From Rhodanobacteraceae bacterium (lineage in GTDB: Bacteria > Pseudomonadota > Gammaproteobacteria > Xanthomonadales > Rhodanobacteraceae): a stretch of 64,000 bases of DNA. Shown here piece after piece: positions 40,471 to 64,000 of the stretch. Location: the NCBI GenBank assembly GCA_027019085.1, contig JALUXG010000039.1:1-64000 (forward strand), written 5' to 3'. The notes below the pieces were generated by a model. That model saw only the letters and a program-made list of their open reading frames with translations. It was not told where the DNA came from and ran no database searches. Every line of letters begins with the position of its first letter. The stretch's first letter is position 1. The position numbers were made by a program, and so were the translations under genes.

Positions 40471-41575
40471 CGCCCAGCAGGACCGACCGCATGGCCGGAA
40501 CTGGCCGCGCCGATCATGGCTTCCGCCATTCTCACAAGAGCCGCATCACGATTTTTCTGTAGGACGCCCAGCAGGGCCGACCGCATGGCCGGAACTGGCC
40601 GCGCCGGTCATGGCTTCCACCATTCCCACAAGAGCCGCAACGCGCTTTTTTTTGTAGGAGGCCCAGCAGGGCCGACCGCAGGGCCAGAACTGGCCGCGCC
40701 GGTCACGGCTTCCGCCATTCCCACAAGAGCAGCAACGCGCTTTTCCGTAGGAGGCCCAGCAGGGCCGACCGCATGGCCGGAACTGGCCGCGCCGATCATG
40801 GCTTCCGCCATTCCCACAAGAGCCGCATCACGATTTTTCTGTAGGACGCCCAGCAGGGCCGACCGCATGGCCGGAACTGGCCGCGCCGGTCATGGCTTCC
40901 ACCATTCCCACAAGAGCCGCAACGCGCTTTTTTTTGTAGGAGGCCCAGCAGGGCCGACCGCAGGGCCAGAACTGGCCGCGCCGGTCATGGCTTCCACCAT
41001 TCCCACAAGAGCAGCATCGCGATTTTCCGTAGGAGGCCCGGCAGGGCCGACCGCATGGCCGGAACTGGCCGCGCCGGTCACGGCTTCCGCCATTCCCACA
41101 AGAGCGGCAACGCGATTTTTCTGCAGGAGGCCCGGCAGGGCCGACCGCAGGGCCAGAACTGGCCGCGCCGGTCACGGCTTCCGCCATTCCCACAAGAGCA
41201 GCATCGCGATTTTTCTGCAGGAGGCCCGGCAGGGCCGACCGCAGGGCCGGAACTGGCCGCGCCGGTCATGGCTTCCACCATTCCAACAAGAGCAGCAACG
41301 CGCTTTTTTTTGTAGGAGGCCCAGCAGGGCCGACCGCAGGGCCAGAATTGGCCGCGCCGGTCATGGCTTCCGCCATTCCCACAAGAGCAGCAATGCGCTT
41401 TTCCGTAGGAGGCCCGGCAGGGCCGACCGCAGGGCCAGAATTGGCCGCGCCGGTCATGGCTTCCACCATTCCCACAAGAGCAGCATCGCGATTTTTCTGC
41501 AGGAGGCCCGGCAGGGCCGACCGCAGGGCCGGAACTGGCCGCGCCGGTCACGGCTTCCGCCGTTCCCACAAGCAC
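40471..41575. repeat. Tandem array of 12 units of ~94 bp (93-95), multi-hairpin, REP-like head
   Basis: GCCC(A/G)GCAGG motif at 40472, 40566, 40661, 40754, 40848, 40943, 41036, 41130, 41224, 41319, 41412, 41506. Confidence 0.97.
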
Positions 41576-41586
41576 GGGATCGTACT

Positions 41587-42789
41587 TTACGCCCTGGGCA
41601 GGACTCCCGTGGCGCGGCCGGTGCGAATGAACGCCTCGATGGCCTCATCGAGCTGTTCGCGGGTGTGTGCCGCGCTCATCTGGGTACGGATACGCGCCTG
41701 GCCCTTGGGGACGACCGGGAAGAAGAAGCCGGTCACGTAGATGCCTTCGTCCAGCAGGGCATTGGCCATCGCCTGGGCTTTTGGCGCGTCATGGATCATC
41801 ACCGGAACGATAGGGTGATCCCCCGGCTTGATCTCGAAACCGGCCTCGTTCATGTGCTGGCGGAAATACGCGGTGTTGTCCTTCAGCCGTTTGCGCAGGT
41901 CGTCGGCACCGGCCAGCATGTCGAACACCTTGATGCCGGCGGCCACCACATGCGGCGGAAGCGAGTTGGAGAACAGATAGGGCCGCGAGCGCTGGCGCAG
42001 CATGTCGATGATGTCCTGGCGCCCTGTGGTGAAGCCACCGACAGCGCCACCCAGCGACTTGCCCAGGGTGCCGGTGAAGATGTCGATCCGGTCCATCACC
42101 CCGTGCACCTCGGCCGAACCGCGGCCGGTGGGGCCGAGGAAGCCGGTGGCGTGGCACTCGTCGATGTGCACCAGCGCGCCGTATTTTTCGGCCAGCGCGG
42201 TGATCGCATCCAGGCGGGCGACAAAGCCGTCCATCGAGAACACGCCGTCGGTGGTGATGATGGTGCTGCGCACCCCGTCGGCCTGGGCGGCCTTGAGCTG
42301 GGCTTCCAGGTCGTCCATGTCGGAGTTGGCGTAACGGTAGCGTCGGGCCTTGCACAGGCGCACGCCGTCGATGATCGAGGCGTGGTTGAGCGCATCGGAA
42401 ATGATCGCATCCTCGGGGCCGAACAACGGCTCGAACAGGCCGCCGTTGGCATCGAAGCAGGCGGCATACAGGATCGCGTCATCGGTGCCGAAGAAGTCCG
42501 CGATCTTGCGCTCCAGTGCCTTGTGCAGGTCCTGGGTGCCGCAGATGAAACGCACCGAGGCCATGCCGAAGCCATGCGTGTCGAGCGCTTTCTTGGCGGC
42601 GGCGATCACGTCCGGATGATCGGCCAGCCCGAGGTAGTTGTTGGCGCAGAAATTGAGCACCTTGCGACCGTCCGCCAGCGTGATCCGTGCCGATTGCGGT
42701 GAGGTGATGATGCGCTCTTCCTTGTACAGCCCGTTGTCGCGGATGTCGTCGAGTTCGGACTTGAGGCGGTCGCGGATGGTATAGGCCAT
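41587..42789 (-). CDS. kbl: Glycine C-acetyltransferase (2-amino-3-ketobutyrate CoA ligase)
   Basis: [46 protein letters not shown]. Confidence 0.96.
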
Positions 42790-51731: not shown

Positions 51732-51760
51732 CCCCTGCCGCACCATCGTTTCGCATATCC

Positions 51761-53526
<1,766 letters not shown>

Positions 53527-56541: not shown

Positions 56542-56700
56542 TCAAGCGCAGCAGGCATCCCATCGATTATGAAAGGGGCCTCGACACCAAATTCGAAACG
56601 TCTTACCACGATCCCATTAGAGCGCGTTTGAGTGAATCTGGAATCGCTATTCCCCTGGCACAGCCGGTCACGCCGGAGACCACAAGAGAAGTTTGCATCT

Positions 56701-58653
56701 ATGTCTGTAACACAGCTCTCGAACGAAGAGGCTTCCTTCATCCAGGCGCTCGCGGCACGCGGCGGTTCGGCAGGAAATATCAGCCTGCGGGCGGACCTGG
56801 CATGGTCCGAGGAAGCCTACGAGCGCATCCGCGCGTCCCTCATCGAAGCAGGGTTTGTACGAGCGGGGCGAGGCCGTGGTGGTTCCGTGATCCTTGCCGA
56901 GCGCGTGCAGCATGCAATCGAAGGGGGTAGCGACAAGGCGACCAAAGAGAGTACGAAGCAAAAGAAGCACAAGGCTGCAAGCGCGAAGCGCGGCAAGACT
57001 GCAAAGGAAGCGAGCGACGCCAATCTGGGCTTCGAAGCCGAGCTGTTCAAGGCGGCGGACAAGTTGCGCGGCAACATGGAACCCAGCGACTACAAGCACG
57101 TCGCGCTGGGCCTGATCTTCCTGAAGTACATTTCCGACGCCTTCGAGGCGCGCCATGCCGAATTGCTGGCCGACGACCCGCAGGTGGCGGAGGACAGGGA
57201 CGAATACCTCGCCGACAACATCTTCTGGGTGCCCAAGGATGCACGCTGGTCGCATCTGAAGGCCAACGCCAAGCGCCCTGAAATTGGCACCCTCATCGAC
57301 GACGCCATGCGCGCCATCGAAAAGAGCAACGAATCGCTCAAGGGCGTCTTGCCCAAGGACTACGCGCGACCCGCGCTCAACAAGGTGATGCTGGGCGAGC
57401 TGATCGACCTGATCTCCGGCATCGCGCTGGGTGAAGGCGAAAGCCCGTCCAGGGACGTGCTGGGTCGCGTCTACGAATACTTCCTCGCCCAGTTCGCCGG
57501 CAGCGAGGGCAAGCGCGGCGGCGAGTTCTACACCCCGCGTTCGGTGGTGCGTGTGCTGGTGGAAATGCTCGAGCCCTACCACGGCCGCGTCTACGATCCG
57601 TGTTGCGGCTCCGGCGGCATGTTCGTGCAGAGCGACAAGTTCGTGCGCGAACACGGCGGACGCATCGGCGATATCGCCATCTACGGCCAGGAGAGCAACT
57701 ACACCACCTGGCGCCTGGCCAAGATGAACCTGGCCGTGCGCGGCATCGACGCCGACATCCGCTGGAACAACGAGGGCAGCTTCCACAAGGACGAACTGCG
57801 TGACCTGCGCTTCGACCACATCCTCGCCAACCCGCCCTTCAATATCTCCGACTGGGGCGGCGACCGCCTGCGCGAAGACCCGCGCTGGCAGTTCGGTGTG
57901 CCGCCCGTGGGCAACGCCAACTACGCCTGGCTCCAGCACATCTACCACCACCTCGCACCCAACGGCACGGCGGGCGTGGTGCTGGCCAACGGCTCCATGA
58001 GTTCCAATCAGAGCGGCGAAGGCGAGATCCGCAAGGCCATGGTCGAGGCCGACGCCGTGGACTGCATGGTGGCCCTGCCGGGGCAGTTGTTCTACTCCAC
58101 CCAGATCCCCGCCTGCCTGTGGTTCCTGGCCCGCGACAAATCCAACGGCAAGCGCGGCAAGGAGACGCTGCGCGACCGACGCGGCGAGGTGCTGTTCATC
58201 GACGCCCGCAACATGGGCACACTGGTGGACCGCACCCGGCGCGAACTCAGCGATGCCGATATCCAGAAGATCGCCGATACCTATCATGCCTGGCGCCGGG
58301 CAGGAGGCCCAAGTGTCGCGGAGGACAGGACGTCCGAGAGCGACCGGGGCGAGAAGGGTGCCGGCGACGCACAGGGAAGTGCAAGTGTCGCGGGAGGCAG
58401 GATGCCGAGAGCGACCAAGTACGCGGACATTCCGGGCTTCTGCAAGAGCGCCAGCCTGGAAGCCATCCGCAAGCACGGCCATGTGCTTACGCCCGGCCGC
58501 TATGTCGGCGCCGAAGCCGCCGAGGACGACGGCGAGCCGTTCGAAGAAAAGATGCGGCGGCTCAGTACGCAGTGGAGGGAGCAGCAGCAGGAGGCGGCGC
58601 GGCTGGATGCGGCGATTGAAGCCAACCTGAGGGAGCTTGGGTATGGCGGGTGA
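56701..58653 (+). CDS. hsdM: Type I restriction-modification methyltransferase subunit with N-terminal wHTH-like extension
   Basis: [31 protein letters not shown] 56701. Confidence 0.95.
58310..58416 (+). repeat. Two tandem copies of palindromic element inside hsdM
   Basis: CAAGTGTCGCGGAGGACAGGACGTCCGAGAGCGACC (58310-58345) and CAAGTGTCGCGGGAGGCAGGATGCCGAGAGCGACC (58382-58416). Confidence 0.9.
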
Positions 58654-59935
58654 GTGGCGAGTGAAAACGCTCGACCGGCTTGGTCGCGTTGTTACAGGAA
58701 AAACGCCTCCATCGACCAATCTTAATGCGTTTGGCGGAAACATCCCTTTCGTAACGCCGTCGGACATGGACGGTTCGCGCATCATCACGAATACAACGCG
58801 GCACTTGTCTGCATCCGGCCAAACAGGGGTGAAAAATGCGGCCATTCCGAAAGGTGCAGTTATGGTGTCCTGCATTGGTTCTGATATGGGCAAGGCTGCG
58901 ATTGCCGGAGCTGATTGCGCGACTAACCAGCAAATCAACAGCATCATCGTTGATACAGATGATTCGGCGCTATTCGTTTACTACAACCTCAGCACAAGGA
59001 AATCCGAGATTCGCGGATCTGCCAGCGGTTCGGCGCAACCCATCTTGAACAAATCGGCGTTCGGCCGTCTTGAAATTGAACTGCCTTCGCCAGCTGAACA
59101 ACGCGCCATCGCCCACATCCTCGGCACGCTGGACGACAAGATCGAACTCAACCGCCGCCGCAACCAGACGCTGGAGGCCATGGCCCGCGCCCTGTTCAAG
59201 GACTGGTTCGTCGACTTCGGCCCCGTCCGCGCCAAGATGGAAGGCCGCACCCCCTATCTTCCCGCCGACCTCTGGCAGCTCCTCCCCGATCGCCTTGATG
59301 ACGAGGGCAAGCCGGAGGGGTGGCGGTACTCGACGATCGGCAGCGAAGTCACCGTCTGCGGTGGTTCGACACCCAGCACCAAGGAACCAGCCTTCTGGGA
59401 GGGCGGTGAACATCACTGGGCAACACCGAAGGATCTTTCGACGCTGACATTTCCCGTGCTACTCGATACGGCTCGAAAGATCACCGATGCAGGTATTGCC
59501 AAGATCGGCTCTGGCCTATTGCCCGTCGGTACAGTGTTGCTCTCCTCGCGTGCCCCTATTGGCTACCTCGCCATCACCGAAGTGCCGACAGCTATCAATC
59601 AAGGCTTCATCGCCATGAAGTGCGATGGTTCTTTGCCGAACGTATTCGTCCTGTTCTGGTGCCGCGAGAATATGGATCTCATTCTTGGCAATGCCAACGG
59701 CTCCACTTTCCAGGAGATCAGCAAGGGCAACTTCCGCCCGATCCCGGTGGTCGTGCCATCCGAGCCGATTCTGAATGCATTCCGAGAGCATACCGAGCCG
59801 CTGTATCGCCATATCGTCGAAAACGAGCGCGAATCTCACACCCTCTCCCAACTCCGCGATACCCTGCTGCCCAAACTGATATCCGGCGACTTGCGTATCG
59901 CCGAAGCAAAGCGTTTCTTGGAGAGAACGACGTGA
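58643..59935 (+). CDS. hsdS: Type I restriction-modification specificity subunit
   Basis: Two target-recognition halves with conserved helices ([44 protein letters not shown]). Confidence 0.94.
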
Positions 59936-61338
59936 CGACTGCCGAGCAAATCAATCTCTGGCGGCAGGCGCCATCCGAGGACCAGCGGCTGGAGTTCAAG
60001 GAAGCCAAGGCCCAGTTTGACTTTCGTAAGCTGCAACAGTACTGCGTTGCGCTTGCCAACGAGGGTGGAGGCGTGCTGCTACTGGGGGTGGCGGACAAGC
60101 CGCCGCGCCCGGTGGTTGGCAGCAAGGCGTTCCCGGATACCGTCAAGACTGCGCAGGATCTGTTCCATGCCATCGGCTTCCGGGTCGATGTGGAAGCTGT
60201 TGCGCACCCGGATGGCCGTGTGGTCGTGTTCCACATTCCGCCGCGGCCGCTCGGCACGGCCTATCATCTCGACGGCAAGTATCTCATGCGTGCCGGTGAG
60301 GCGCTGGTGCCGATGAGCGAGGACCACTTGCGGCGCATATTCGCCGAGGGCGAGCCCGATTGGCTGGAAGAGCATTCGATTACTGGGGCGGACCCCGAAG
60401 ACGTGGTGGAACTGCTCGACGTGCAGGCCTTCTTCGAGTTGCTGAAACTGCCCTATCCGTCCGATCGTTCCGGCGTAATCGACCGTCTGCTGCGCGAGCG
60501 GCTGGTCGACCCGTTAGACGGCACTCTTGCCATTCGTCGCCTGGGCGCGCTTATGCTGGCTCGCCGCCTGGAAGATTTTCCCGACCTTGCCAGGAAAGCA
60601 CCACGGGTAGTGGTCTACACGGGAAACAACAAGCTCGAGACTCGGCTGGACCAGACTGGCATCAAGGGCTACGCGGTGGGTTTCCGTGGGCTGGTGCAGT
60701 TCGTGATGGATCAGTTGCCGCAGAATGAAGTGATCGAGGATGCGCTCCGCAAGGAGGTCAAGCTGGTTCCCGAGGTGGTAGTTCGCGAACTGACTGCCAA
60801 TGCGCTCATCCACCAGGACTTCACCGTACGTGGTGCATCGGTGATGATCGAGATCTACACCAACCGGGTCGAGTTCTCCAACCCGGGCGAGCCTATCGTG
60901 CCGGTGGAGCGCTTTATCGACGGCTACCAGTCGCGCAACGAACGTCTGGCCGACTTGATGCGCCGCTTTGGCATCTGCGAGGAGAAGAGTAGTGGTATCG
61001 ACCGGGTGGTCCAAGCGGCAGAGGTCTACCAGTTGCCGGCGCCGGATTTCCGTGCCGGTCACCACAGGACGGTTGTGACCCTCTACGGGCCAAAGCCTTT
61101 CGAGGAGATGGATCGGAACGATCGCGTGCGGGCCTGCTACCAGCATTGCGCCCTGAAGTGGGTGATGGCTGAGAAAATGACAAATCAATCGCTGCGTGAA
61201 CGCTTCCACCTCCCTGAGGGCAAGGCGGCGATTGCCTCCCAAATCATCGCGGCGGCGACCGAGGCCGGGCTGATCAAGCCGGACGAGGCTGTAGGGAAGT
61301 CTCGCAAGTTCGCCCGCTACTTGCCTTTCTGGGCCTGA
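59932..61338 (+). CDS. ATP-binding protein with AlbA_2/Schlafen-like N-domain (COG2865-like), GTG start
   Basis: EDQRLEFKEAKAQFDFRKLQQYCVALANEGGGVLLLGVAD; C-terminal HATPase-like VVRELTANALIHQDF. Confidence 0.88.
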   Translation: MTTAEQINLWRQAPSEDQRLEFKEAKAQFDFRKLQQYCVALANEGGGVLLLGVADKPPRPVVGSKAFPDTVKTAQDLFHAIGFRVDVEAVAHPDGRVVVFHIPPRPLGTAYHLDGKYLMRAGEALVPMSEDHLRRIFAEGEPDWLEEHSITGADPEDVVELLDVQAFFELLKLPYPSDRSGVIDRLLRERLVDPLDGTLAIRRLGALMLARRLEDFPDLARKAPRVVVYTGNNKLETRLDQTGIKGYAVGFRGLVQFVMDQLPQNEVIEDALRKEVKLVPEVVVRELTANALIHQDFTVRGASVMIEIYTNRVEFSNPGEPIVPVERFIDGYQSRNERLADLMRRFGICEEKSSGIDRVVQAAEVYQLPAPDFRAGHHRTVVTLYGPKPFEEMDRNDRVRACYQHCALKWVMAEKMTNQSLRERFHLPEGKAAIASQIIAAATEAGLIKPDEAVGKSRKFARYLPFWA

Positions 61339-61436
61339 GTTTCATTTAACGCATTGCCACCGGCAGGGGGATAGGGTGCAAGAAAAGTATGTAAAAACAG
61401 ATACTTATTTATTTAAGCCTTTCCCGGGCTGCGCCA

Positions 61437-64000
61437 ATGACGTTCCTGTCTGAAGCCGAGCTCGAAGCCGCGCTGCTTGAGCAGCTCATCGGCTTGGGCT
61501 ACACCTGCACCTCGGACGAGCTGATCGGCCCCGACGGCAAACAGCCGGAACGAGACGCCTACGATGAGGTGGTGCTCAAGGCGCGACTGGCTGAAGCCGT
61601 GGCTCGCCTGAACCCGACGTTGCCGCCTGAAGCACTGGCCGATGCGGTGCGTCGCCTGACGCAGTCTGAACTGCCCAACCTGCTGGAAGAGAACCGTCGC
61701 ATCCACCGCCTGCTGATCGAAGGCGTGGATGTGGAGTATTACGCCGAGGACGGCACGCTGACGGCAGGCAAGGTGCGTCTGATCGATTTCGACGCGCCAT
61801 CGAAAAACGACTGGTTGGCGGTGCAGCAATTCGTCGTGGTGTCGGGTCACGTCAACCGTCGCCCGGATGTGGTGATATTCGTCAACGGCCTGCCGTTGGC
61901 GGTGATCGAGCTGAAGGCCCCTGGCGGCGAGAACGCAACGCTGGTGGGCGCGTTCAATCAGCTACAGACCTACAAACTGCAGATTCCCGCATTGTTCCGC
62001 AGCAACGCGTTGCTGGTGACGTCCGATGGCTTGTCGGCACGGGTGGGTTCGCTGTCGGCGGACCTGGAGCGCTTCATGCCCTGGCGCACGACGGACGGTC
62101 GGCAGATCGAGCCCAAGGGATCGCCGGAACTGGCGACGTTGATCGAGGGCGTGTTCGAAAAGCATCGGTTCCTTCAACTGCTGCGCCGATTCACGGTGTT
62201 TGGCGAATCAAGTAGTGGGCTGGTCAAGATTGTGGCTGGTTATCACCAGTACCACGCGGTGCGAAAGGCAGTGGCGTCAACGCTCCGTGCTAGTCAGTCT
62301 GATTGGCAGGCGGAGGATCCGGCCGAATACGGTTTGCCCGGCGTCGACAGCCAGCCGGCGGGTGATCGCAAGGCCGGTGTGATCTGGCATACGCAGGGCT
62401 CCGGGAAGAGCCTGTTGATGGCCTTCTACGCGGGCATGCTGGTGGCCGAGCCGCGCATGGCCAACCCCACGCTGGTGGTCCTCACCGATCGCAATGATCT
62501 GGATGATCAGCTCTTTACCACCTTTGCCATGTGCAAGGACCTGATCCGGCAGACGCCGGTGCAGGCCGAGGACCGGGAGCATCTGCGCAGCTTGCTCAAC
62601 CGTGCGTCCGGTGGCGTGATCTTCACCACCCTGCAGAAGTTTTCGCCTCAGCCCGGAGAGACCGAATTTCCGGTGCTGACGGAGCGCTCCAACGTGATCG
62701 TCATCGCCGACGAAGCGCATCGCAGCCAGTACGGGTTCAAGGCCAAGGTGGCGGGCAAGACCGGCGAGATCGGCTACGGGTTTGCCAAGTACCTGCGAGA
62801 TGCGCTGCCGCACGCGTCGTTCATCGGCTTCACCGGCACGCCGATTGAAGCGAGCGACGTCAACACGCCGGCCGTGTTCGGCCATTACATCGACATCTAC
62901 GACATCAGCCGGGCGGTGGAAGACGGCGCCACGGTGCCAATCTATTACGAATCCCGTTTGGCGCGCATCCAGCTGGACGAGGATGAGAAACCGCGCATCG
63001 ATGCCGAGATCGAAGCGTTGCTGGAGGATGACGACGAGGCCAGCGCCGAGCGCACCAAGCAGAAGTGGAGCACCGTCGAGACCCTGGTAGGCAGCCCCAG
63101 GCGTTTGGCCCTGGTGGCCGCCGATCTGGTGCAGCATTTCGAGGACCGCGTGGCGGCGCTCGACGGCAAGGCCATGGTGGTGTGCATGAGCCGGCGCATC
63201 TGCGTGGCCTTGTACGACGAGATCATCAAGCTGCGCCCGGACTGGCACAGCGATGACGACAACGCCGGCAGCCTCAAGGTCGTGATGACGGGCGCGGCTT
63301 CCGATCCGGCGGCGTGGCAGCCGCATATCGGCGGCTCGACCAGTCCTGGGGCGCGCCGCGATCTGCTGGCCAAGCGCGCCCGCGATCCAGGTGATCCGCT
63401 GCGGATGGTGATTGTTCGCGATATGTGGTTGACCGGTTTCGATGCGCCGAGCATGCACACGATGTACATCGACAAGCCCATGCGCGGGCATGGTCTGATG
63501 CAGGCGATCGCGCGCGTGAACCGTGTGTTCCGCGACAAGCCGGCAGGGTTGATCGTCGACTACATCGGCATCGCGCAGAACCTGAAATCCGCACTGGCGC
63601 AGTACTCAAAACCTGATCAGGACAAGACCGGCATCGATGAAGCCGAGGCCGTGGCGGTCATGCTGGAGAAGTACGAGATCGTGCGCGACATGTTCGCCGC
63701 ACAGGGAAGTGCAAGTGTCGCGGGAGGCAGGATGCCGGGAGCGACCCACGGTTTCGACTACCGCAGCGCGTTGGGTGGCACACCGGGCGAACGGTTGGCG
63801 ATGATGGCGGGCGCTATCGAGTGGATTCTCGATAAGCAGCAGCAGTGGGCGGCTGCGGAGAAGACCAAGGAAGCCAAGAAGCAGGCGCAGCGGCGCTTCG
63901 CGGATGGCGTGCTGGCCTTGTCCAAGGCGTTTGCCCTGGCGGCCAGTTCGGATGAAGCGAAGGGTATCCGCGAAGAAGTCGGTTTCTTTCAGGCGATCCG
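61437..64000 (+). CDS. hsdR: Type I restriction endonuclease subunit (truncated by window end; absent from ORF track)
   Basis: [25 protein letters not shown] nuclease motif; [18 protein letters not shown] Walker [13 protein letters not shown]. Confidence 0.95.
63698..63746 (+). repeat. Copy of the hsdM palindromic element inside hsdR
   Basis: 49 bp matching 58368-58416 with one difference, same reading frame. Confidence 0.92.

Follow-up and report, generated by a model that had tools for sequence, protein, structure and literature searches.

A 51-bp two-hairpin element inserted in hsdM, hsdR and other genes of Gammaproteobacteria: an apparently undescribed and probably mobile family

Introduction

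Rickettsia palindromic elements (RPEs) are palindromes that sit in frame in unrelated protein genes and have no transposase of their own. They measure ~150 bp as first reported (PMC10969869), and those of R. conorii are CGTC-tagged at one end (PMC3733652). Repetitive extragenic palindromic (REP) sequences, including those linked to REP-associated tyrosine transposases (RAYTs) (PMC2817692), are short palindromes that form dimers and clusters, and GTAG- or CGTC-tagged members can also lie inside open reading frames (ORFs), among them uvrA and tRNA synthetase genes (PMC3733652). Here we describe a 51-bp element that interrupts hsdM and hsdR, two genes of a type I restriction-modification (RM) system of a Rhodanobacteraceae bacterium (assembly GCA_027019085.1). 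The window, i.e. the whole stretch of DNA analysed, comprises 64,000 nucleotides of the forward strand of contig JALUXG010000039.1 (positions 1 to 64,000). We argue that the element probably represents a family of small mobile elements that are structured and non-autonomous.

The first-pass annotation of the window had compared the element in concept with RPEs and considered that it may be an undescribed family, and both views are borne out. As RPEs do, the element forms an in-frame palindrome in many unrelated genes and lacks a transposase of its own; in contrast to the ~150-bp, CGTC-tagged RPEs of Rickettsiales, it is 51 bp long, resides in Gammaproteobacteria, folds into two small ANGGA-loop hairpins and shows no CGTC tag at its ends in 90 aligned units. 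This distinction is drawn from length, host class and end tag rather than from the RPE sequences themselves. The same 90 units lack a GTAG/GTGG head beside the palindrome, taking the REP table of PMC2817692 as reference, and no match to the element was found among the published REP sequences compared. Rfam returned no relevant match above the gathering threshold for the window or for loci L015 and L085. A search of open-access papers (subscription papers and figures lying outside its reach) with the element sequence yielded unrelated primer matches only, while literature searches led to papers on REPs, RPEs and miniature inverted-repeat transposable elements (MITEs), with no description of a 51-bp family. 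The kind is thus already known, intragenic REPs and RPEs having been described, while the 51-bp family itself looks undescribed; it is best read as a new family, RPE-like and intragenic-REP-like yet separate from both.

Results

Three copies in two restriction-modification genes

Two 49-bp matches with one mismatch had initially been reported at 58368-58416 and 63698-63746. Both are present, with a chance expectation of none, and both are translated in the proposed frame of HsdM and HsdR, gene identities that are backed by Pfam. The unit proved, however, to be 51 bp and to begin 2 nt further upstream, and a diverged third copy, at 58295-58345 in hsdM, had been overlooked. The window therefore carries two copies in hsdM and one in hsdR, placed as follows (^ marks an insertion point or element boundary).

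56632..58653, + strand: hsdM, encoding the type I methyltransferase subunit and carrying copies 1 and 2 (Pfam N6_Mtase, 8e-106; HsdM_N)
58295..58345, + strand: copy 1, 51 bp, in hsdM, GCCGGGCAGGAGGCCCAAGT-GTCGCGGAGGACAGGACGTCCGAGAGCGAC-C; its removal brings TYHAW-R next to GEKGAG, the arrangement of homologues
58346..58365, + strand: native hsdM linker between the inserts, RGEKGAG with neighbouring bases; homologue L124 reads TYHAWRGEDGAGEYADV and others are similar
58366..58416, + strand: copy 2, 51 bp, in hsdM, includes the first 49-bp match; 76.6 bits with the family model
61437..64000, continuing past the window, + strand: hsdR, encoding the type I restriction subunit and carrying copy 3 (Pfam HSDR_N, SWI2_SNF2, T1RH-like_C)
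63696..63746, + strand: copy 3, 51 bp, in hsdR, includes the second 49-bp match; 75.6 bits with the family model; homologue L154 reads ...VRAMF^HGFDYR

At 71 bp upstream of its hsdM neighbour, the diverged copy has a hairpin 1 with the loop AGGAG and a hairpin 2 with an inner stem GGAC/GTCC and the loop AGGAC. What had been taken for a single linker insertion in HsdM is hence a genuine insertion, but one of two 17-aa inserts separated by seven native residues (RGEKGAG). The closest HsdM homologues, 84-86% identical, read TYHAWRGEDGAGEYADV, i.e. they lack either insert around RGEKGAG. The hsdR open frame spans 1100 aa in the full genome. HsdR homologues, 76-79% identical, read LEKVEIVRAMF^HGFDYR with the insert cleanly absent. 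The alignments are clean in both proteins, as had been predicted, and the alternative that homologues carry the same residues by descent does not hold, the closest ones lacking them.

Boundaries, fold and covariation of the unit

In order to set the boundaries of the element, 90 distinct units drawn from many genomes were aligned, which gave a unit of 51 bp, equal to 17 codons, with the layout ...C^G(A/C)NG-hairpin 1-NAGT-GTCGC-[hairpin 2]-GCGACC^. The element is inserted directly 3' of a C with a net gain of 51 bp; it starts with G(A/C)NG after that C and finishes with GCGACC. The ends are exact across about 100 loci and the flanks outside the unit are near background composition. Beyond the C, the target displays only a weak 3' preference, which derives in part from tandem partial copies. 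The two ends, CG(A/C)NG and GCGACC, do not form an inverted repeat, and no target-site duplication is found beyond at most the 1-bp C shared with the target. The element accordingly has neither of the two features that define MITEs, terminal inverted repeats and a target-site duplication.

A single strand of the unit folds into two hairpins. The hairpin recognised previously is correct but incomplete, since a 5' hairpin (GCAC-AGGGAA-GTGC) also belongs to the element. Hairpin 1 has a variable 5-bp stem and the loop A-N-GGA-N, a frequent variant being GUACAGGGAUGUAC; hairpin 2 consists of an outer stem (GTCGC/GCGAC or a version with compensatory changes), a GRGA-type internal loop, a variable inner stem and the loop AGGA-N. 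The ANGGA loops are constant across the family while the stems vary with compensation: among these related sequences double-sided changes occupy 121 cells, mainly in helix 1, compared with 33 in the shuffled sequences, and the score of slid controls is far lower. The outer stem was invariant in the original set because the pattern used for finding that set had fixed it, which makes it uninformative on pairing there; in relatives from the family of the window it changes in step (GTCGC/GCGAC, GCCGC/GCGGC, GCTGC/GCAGC), in a second alignment that was fitted to the model and is so biased towards it.

Empty sites and tandem copies

The source genome carries the element also in uvrA, as two tandem 51-bp copies on contig 45 (L270:2508-2610) with the compensated outer stem GCTGC/GCAGC. 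In the same genus this uvrA site is empty in G142 and G143 and holds one copy in G145. This series is the strongest evidence for insertion followed by tandem multiplication. The inserts in HsdR, in HsdM (twice) and in uvrA all follow a C. Tandem or inverted arrangements occur elsewhere, for example in L037, in L210 and as a UvrA pair in L035.

Coding context

Copies occur inside and outside ORFs, according to gene calls from a simple codon-usage caller. Predicted genes contain 34 of the 37 copies examined in G248 and 13/14 in G246, and about half of the copies in a mixed set of other genomes; the element is thus not mainly extragenic in the sense of REPs. In genes of G248, 18 copies are sense and 16 antisense, and outside that genome most genic copies lie on the sense strand. 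Length is tightly held: 85 of the 88 copies that fall in predicted genes measure exactly 50+1 bp, seven of them through a longer hairpin 2 that makes up for a shorter hairpin 1. Genic copies are open in all six frames in 74% of cases and dinucleotide shuffles in 17%, a comparison that is suggestive rather than a test because the copies share ancestry. The frame S-V-A is used by 25/30 sense copies outside G248 and G246, and this bias suggests that the peptide, once inserted, comes under selection.

The element is found in dozens of unrelated genes of other genomes and not just in hsdM and hsdR. Carriers confirmed by Pfam include ValS (three copies), a second class I synthetase, ArgS, PheT, CysS, BipA, MetH, ClpB, UvrA, UvrD, TGT, a Mur ligase, MoaA, Obg, HrpA, HrpB, PhnI, PhnJ, a MiaB-type radical SAM protein and Dfp, as well as HsdM and HsdS in several other genomes. 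Essential genes are among them. When BipA is aligned with solved BipA, the element appears as an extra block. In two Mpl/MurC-type ligase genes (L252, L278) it sits at one shared position, immediately ahead of the LAVAGTHGKT loop, by either shared descent or repeated insertion.

Distribution and tRNA-Leu-linked copies

A covariance model of the element recovers it across the family and the class. The counts it gives are lower bounds, since only part of the candidates were scored: carriers amount to at least 72/234 genomes within the family of the window and 66/369 sampled Gammaproteobacteria, and three genomes, with G248 at the top, hold at least 131, 108 and 60 copies. Scanning GTDB contigs for the element gave 82 stretches, mostly from Gammaproteobacteria, and in the phylum sample a single family outside this class has it. 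The variant of the window is common, L020, L030 and L034 being nearly identical. Phage and viral collections gave one partial phage match and one viral contig. A DNA primase gene on the Lonsdalea populi plasmid NZ_CP072857.1 carries the element (L209:3583-3635), a plasmid-borne copy that is a possible vehicle for spread.

At about a dozen loci the element follows approximately nt 26 of a tRNA-Leu 5' fragment (GGTAGAC^GATG...; L014, L015, L017, L039, L043, L047, L067, L071, L076, L077, L091; also L027, L084). The fragment is followed by the element and then by a short hairpin, most loci have an intact tRNA-Leu gene downstream, and several consist of tandem units of ~140 bp. The insertion point is the same across different tRNA-Leu isoacceptors. 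These copies are 48-50 bp long, a length not tied to multiples of three.

The HsdM linker and the restriction-modification locus

HsdM or HsdS genes carry the element in other genomes too (L006, L053, L088, L044, L083), which suggests that type I RM operons are recurrent carriers. Closer homologues of the HsdM of the window lack the element while the more distant G018 and G027 have it at the same position, so either the linker is tolerant and repeatedly used or inserts are precisely lost there. No hsdM or hsdR homologue above the cut-off was found in the four same-genus genomes searched, and the GC content drops from ~65% to 60-62% over the final 12 kb of the window; the RM copies may therefore have come in with a horizontally acquired locus.

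In other genomes the HsdM linker TYHAWR...YADIPGF holds unrelated repeat-like peptides, such as SRHSRAGGNP (L128/L129) and PLSPGERGRGEG (L131), and the homologues L140 and L141 likewise bear unrelated repeat-like inserts. These peptides may derive from other palindrome families, and the linker looks like a hot spot for several of them. The window further contains ~12 tandem copies of a 94-bp unit with GCCGACCGCATGGCCGGAACTGGCCGCGCCG (40472-41711), and repeats with GGTAGGAGCGGCGGCAGCCGCGA at 127 bp spacing that resemble a GTAG-type REP array (51754-52093).

Discussion

The data fit best with a non-autonomous mobile element that inserts immediately 3' of a C, adding 51 bp, and can multiply head to tail in steps of that length. 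Because 51 is divisible by three and the six frames are mostly free of stops, insertion in a gene usually just adds a 17-residue linker, mostly of small or polar residues, and the element therefore persists in tolerant loops of functional, even essential, proteins. Conserved loops on stems of free sequence point to recognition of a folded single strand, and we propose that a trans-acting enzyme may recognise the hairpin loops and the outer stem on single-stranded DNA and cut after C. An HUH-type nuclease is our first guess for this enzyme, and a doubtful one. It is plausible, though we put it forward tentatively, that the family is class-wide and specialised for coding sequence by its fixed 51 bp, its stop-poor six frames and its loop-recognised hairpins, with a single-strand enzyme inserting it after C into genes, including the D-arms of tRNA-Leu, and that it would be a source of 17-residue linkers across Gammaproteobacteria. 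Several points weigh against mobility as proposed here: no mobilising gene was identified, no insertion was observed in real time, and many carriers are metagenome assemblies. Moreover, kinship among the sequences means that the shuffle controls overstate independence, and some called strands were wrong (L010, L011 and L025 are sense by Pfam).

The element could instead belong to a REP family mobilised by RAYT, with bacterial interspersed mosaic elements (BIMEs) as composite forms. Its size, its hairpin form and its tandem and inverted arrangements are BIME-like, a Y1_Tnp gene is present in 19/22 carrier genomes, and intragenic REPs have been published in uvrA, recB and other genes (PMC3733652). 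Nevertheless, neither end bears a GTAG or CGTC tag, high-copy genomes keep the element mainly in genes rather than between them, and Y1_Tnp was not found in G261, G237 and G027. No clear copy is present in the flanking sequence retrieved for 25 Y1_Tnp loci from carrier genomes, a subset of their RAYTs, and none of these genes is flanked by copies. One apparent copy downstream of a G255 RAYT turned out to be a diverged relative rather than a flanking pair. We consider a RAYT-driven REP family unlikely.

Slightly less probable still is a spread without a dedicated enzyme, through template switching or hairpin-to-hairpin repair. The first-pass annotation had left room for this by describing a selfish or repair-spread palindrome that lives in ORFs, of which the clean in-frame palindrome stands, while its spread through repair is not established. 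No enzyme was found, the tandem 51-bp steps and the partial inverted copies are what hairpin slippage typically leaves, and the insertion point is merely a single C. However, the exactness of the ends over about 100 loci and a fixed-length dispersal across unrelated genes and genera would be hard to obtain from repair alone.

The loops also raise the possibility of an RNA regulatory module, in which two A(N)GGA hairpin loops would bind CsrA/RsmA in transcripts as a decoy or a stability element. Like the hairpins of CsrB/RsmZ-type RNAs, those of the element are repeated, present A(N)GGA in the loop and keep it while the stems vary, and the consensus RUACARGGAUGU obtained for CsrA by systematic evolution of ligands by exponential enrichment, which appears in ten papers on CsrA (e.g. 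PMC4347634), is matched exactly within the frequent hairpin 1 GUACAGGGAUGUAC. CsrA was detected in 17/20 carrier genomes, and the sense bias outside G248 would agree with action in transcripts. In contrast to CsrB/RsmZ-type hairpins, the element is dispersed, mostly genic in high-copy genomes and fixed at 51 bp; in G248 it lies on both gene strands in similar numbers, and its scatter across housekeeping genes does not look like that of a regulon. Furthermore, G247, G255 and G261, with 15-17 copies each, hold the best-scoring consensus copies and have no detectable CsrA, although these metagenome-assembled genomes may be incomplete; their copies are similar and the genomes are probably related. 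CsrA as a necessary partner was dropped on this basis, with the same caveat on completeness, and we regard a regulatory module as improbable. Finally, duplication or gene conversion confined to this operon, to which the difference of only 2/51 positions between hsdM copy 2 and the hsdR copy might have pointed, is refuted as a full explanation, and has next to no probability left, given the class-wide family, the common variant and the copies in uvrA of the same genome.

In-frame ORF palindromes have so far been known mainly from Rickettsia and from scattered REPs. The present family is class-wide, has sharp ends, empty sites and insertion polymorphism within a genus, and exceeds 100 copies in some genomes. 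With it, the movement of such elements, their accommodation by proteins and their possible selfishness become testable in culturable bacteria. It is also a warning that many essential proteins, as annotated, contain 17-residue "inserts" derived from the element.

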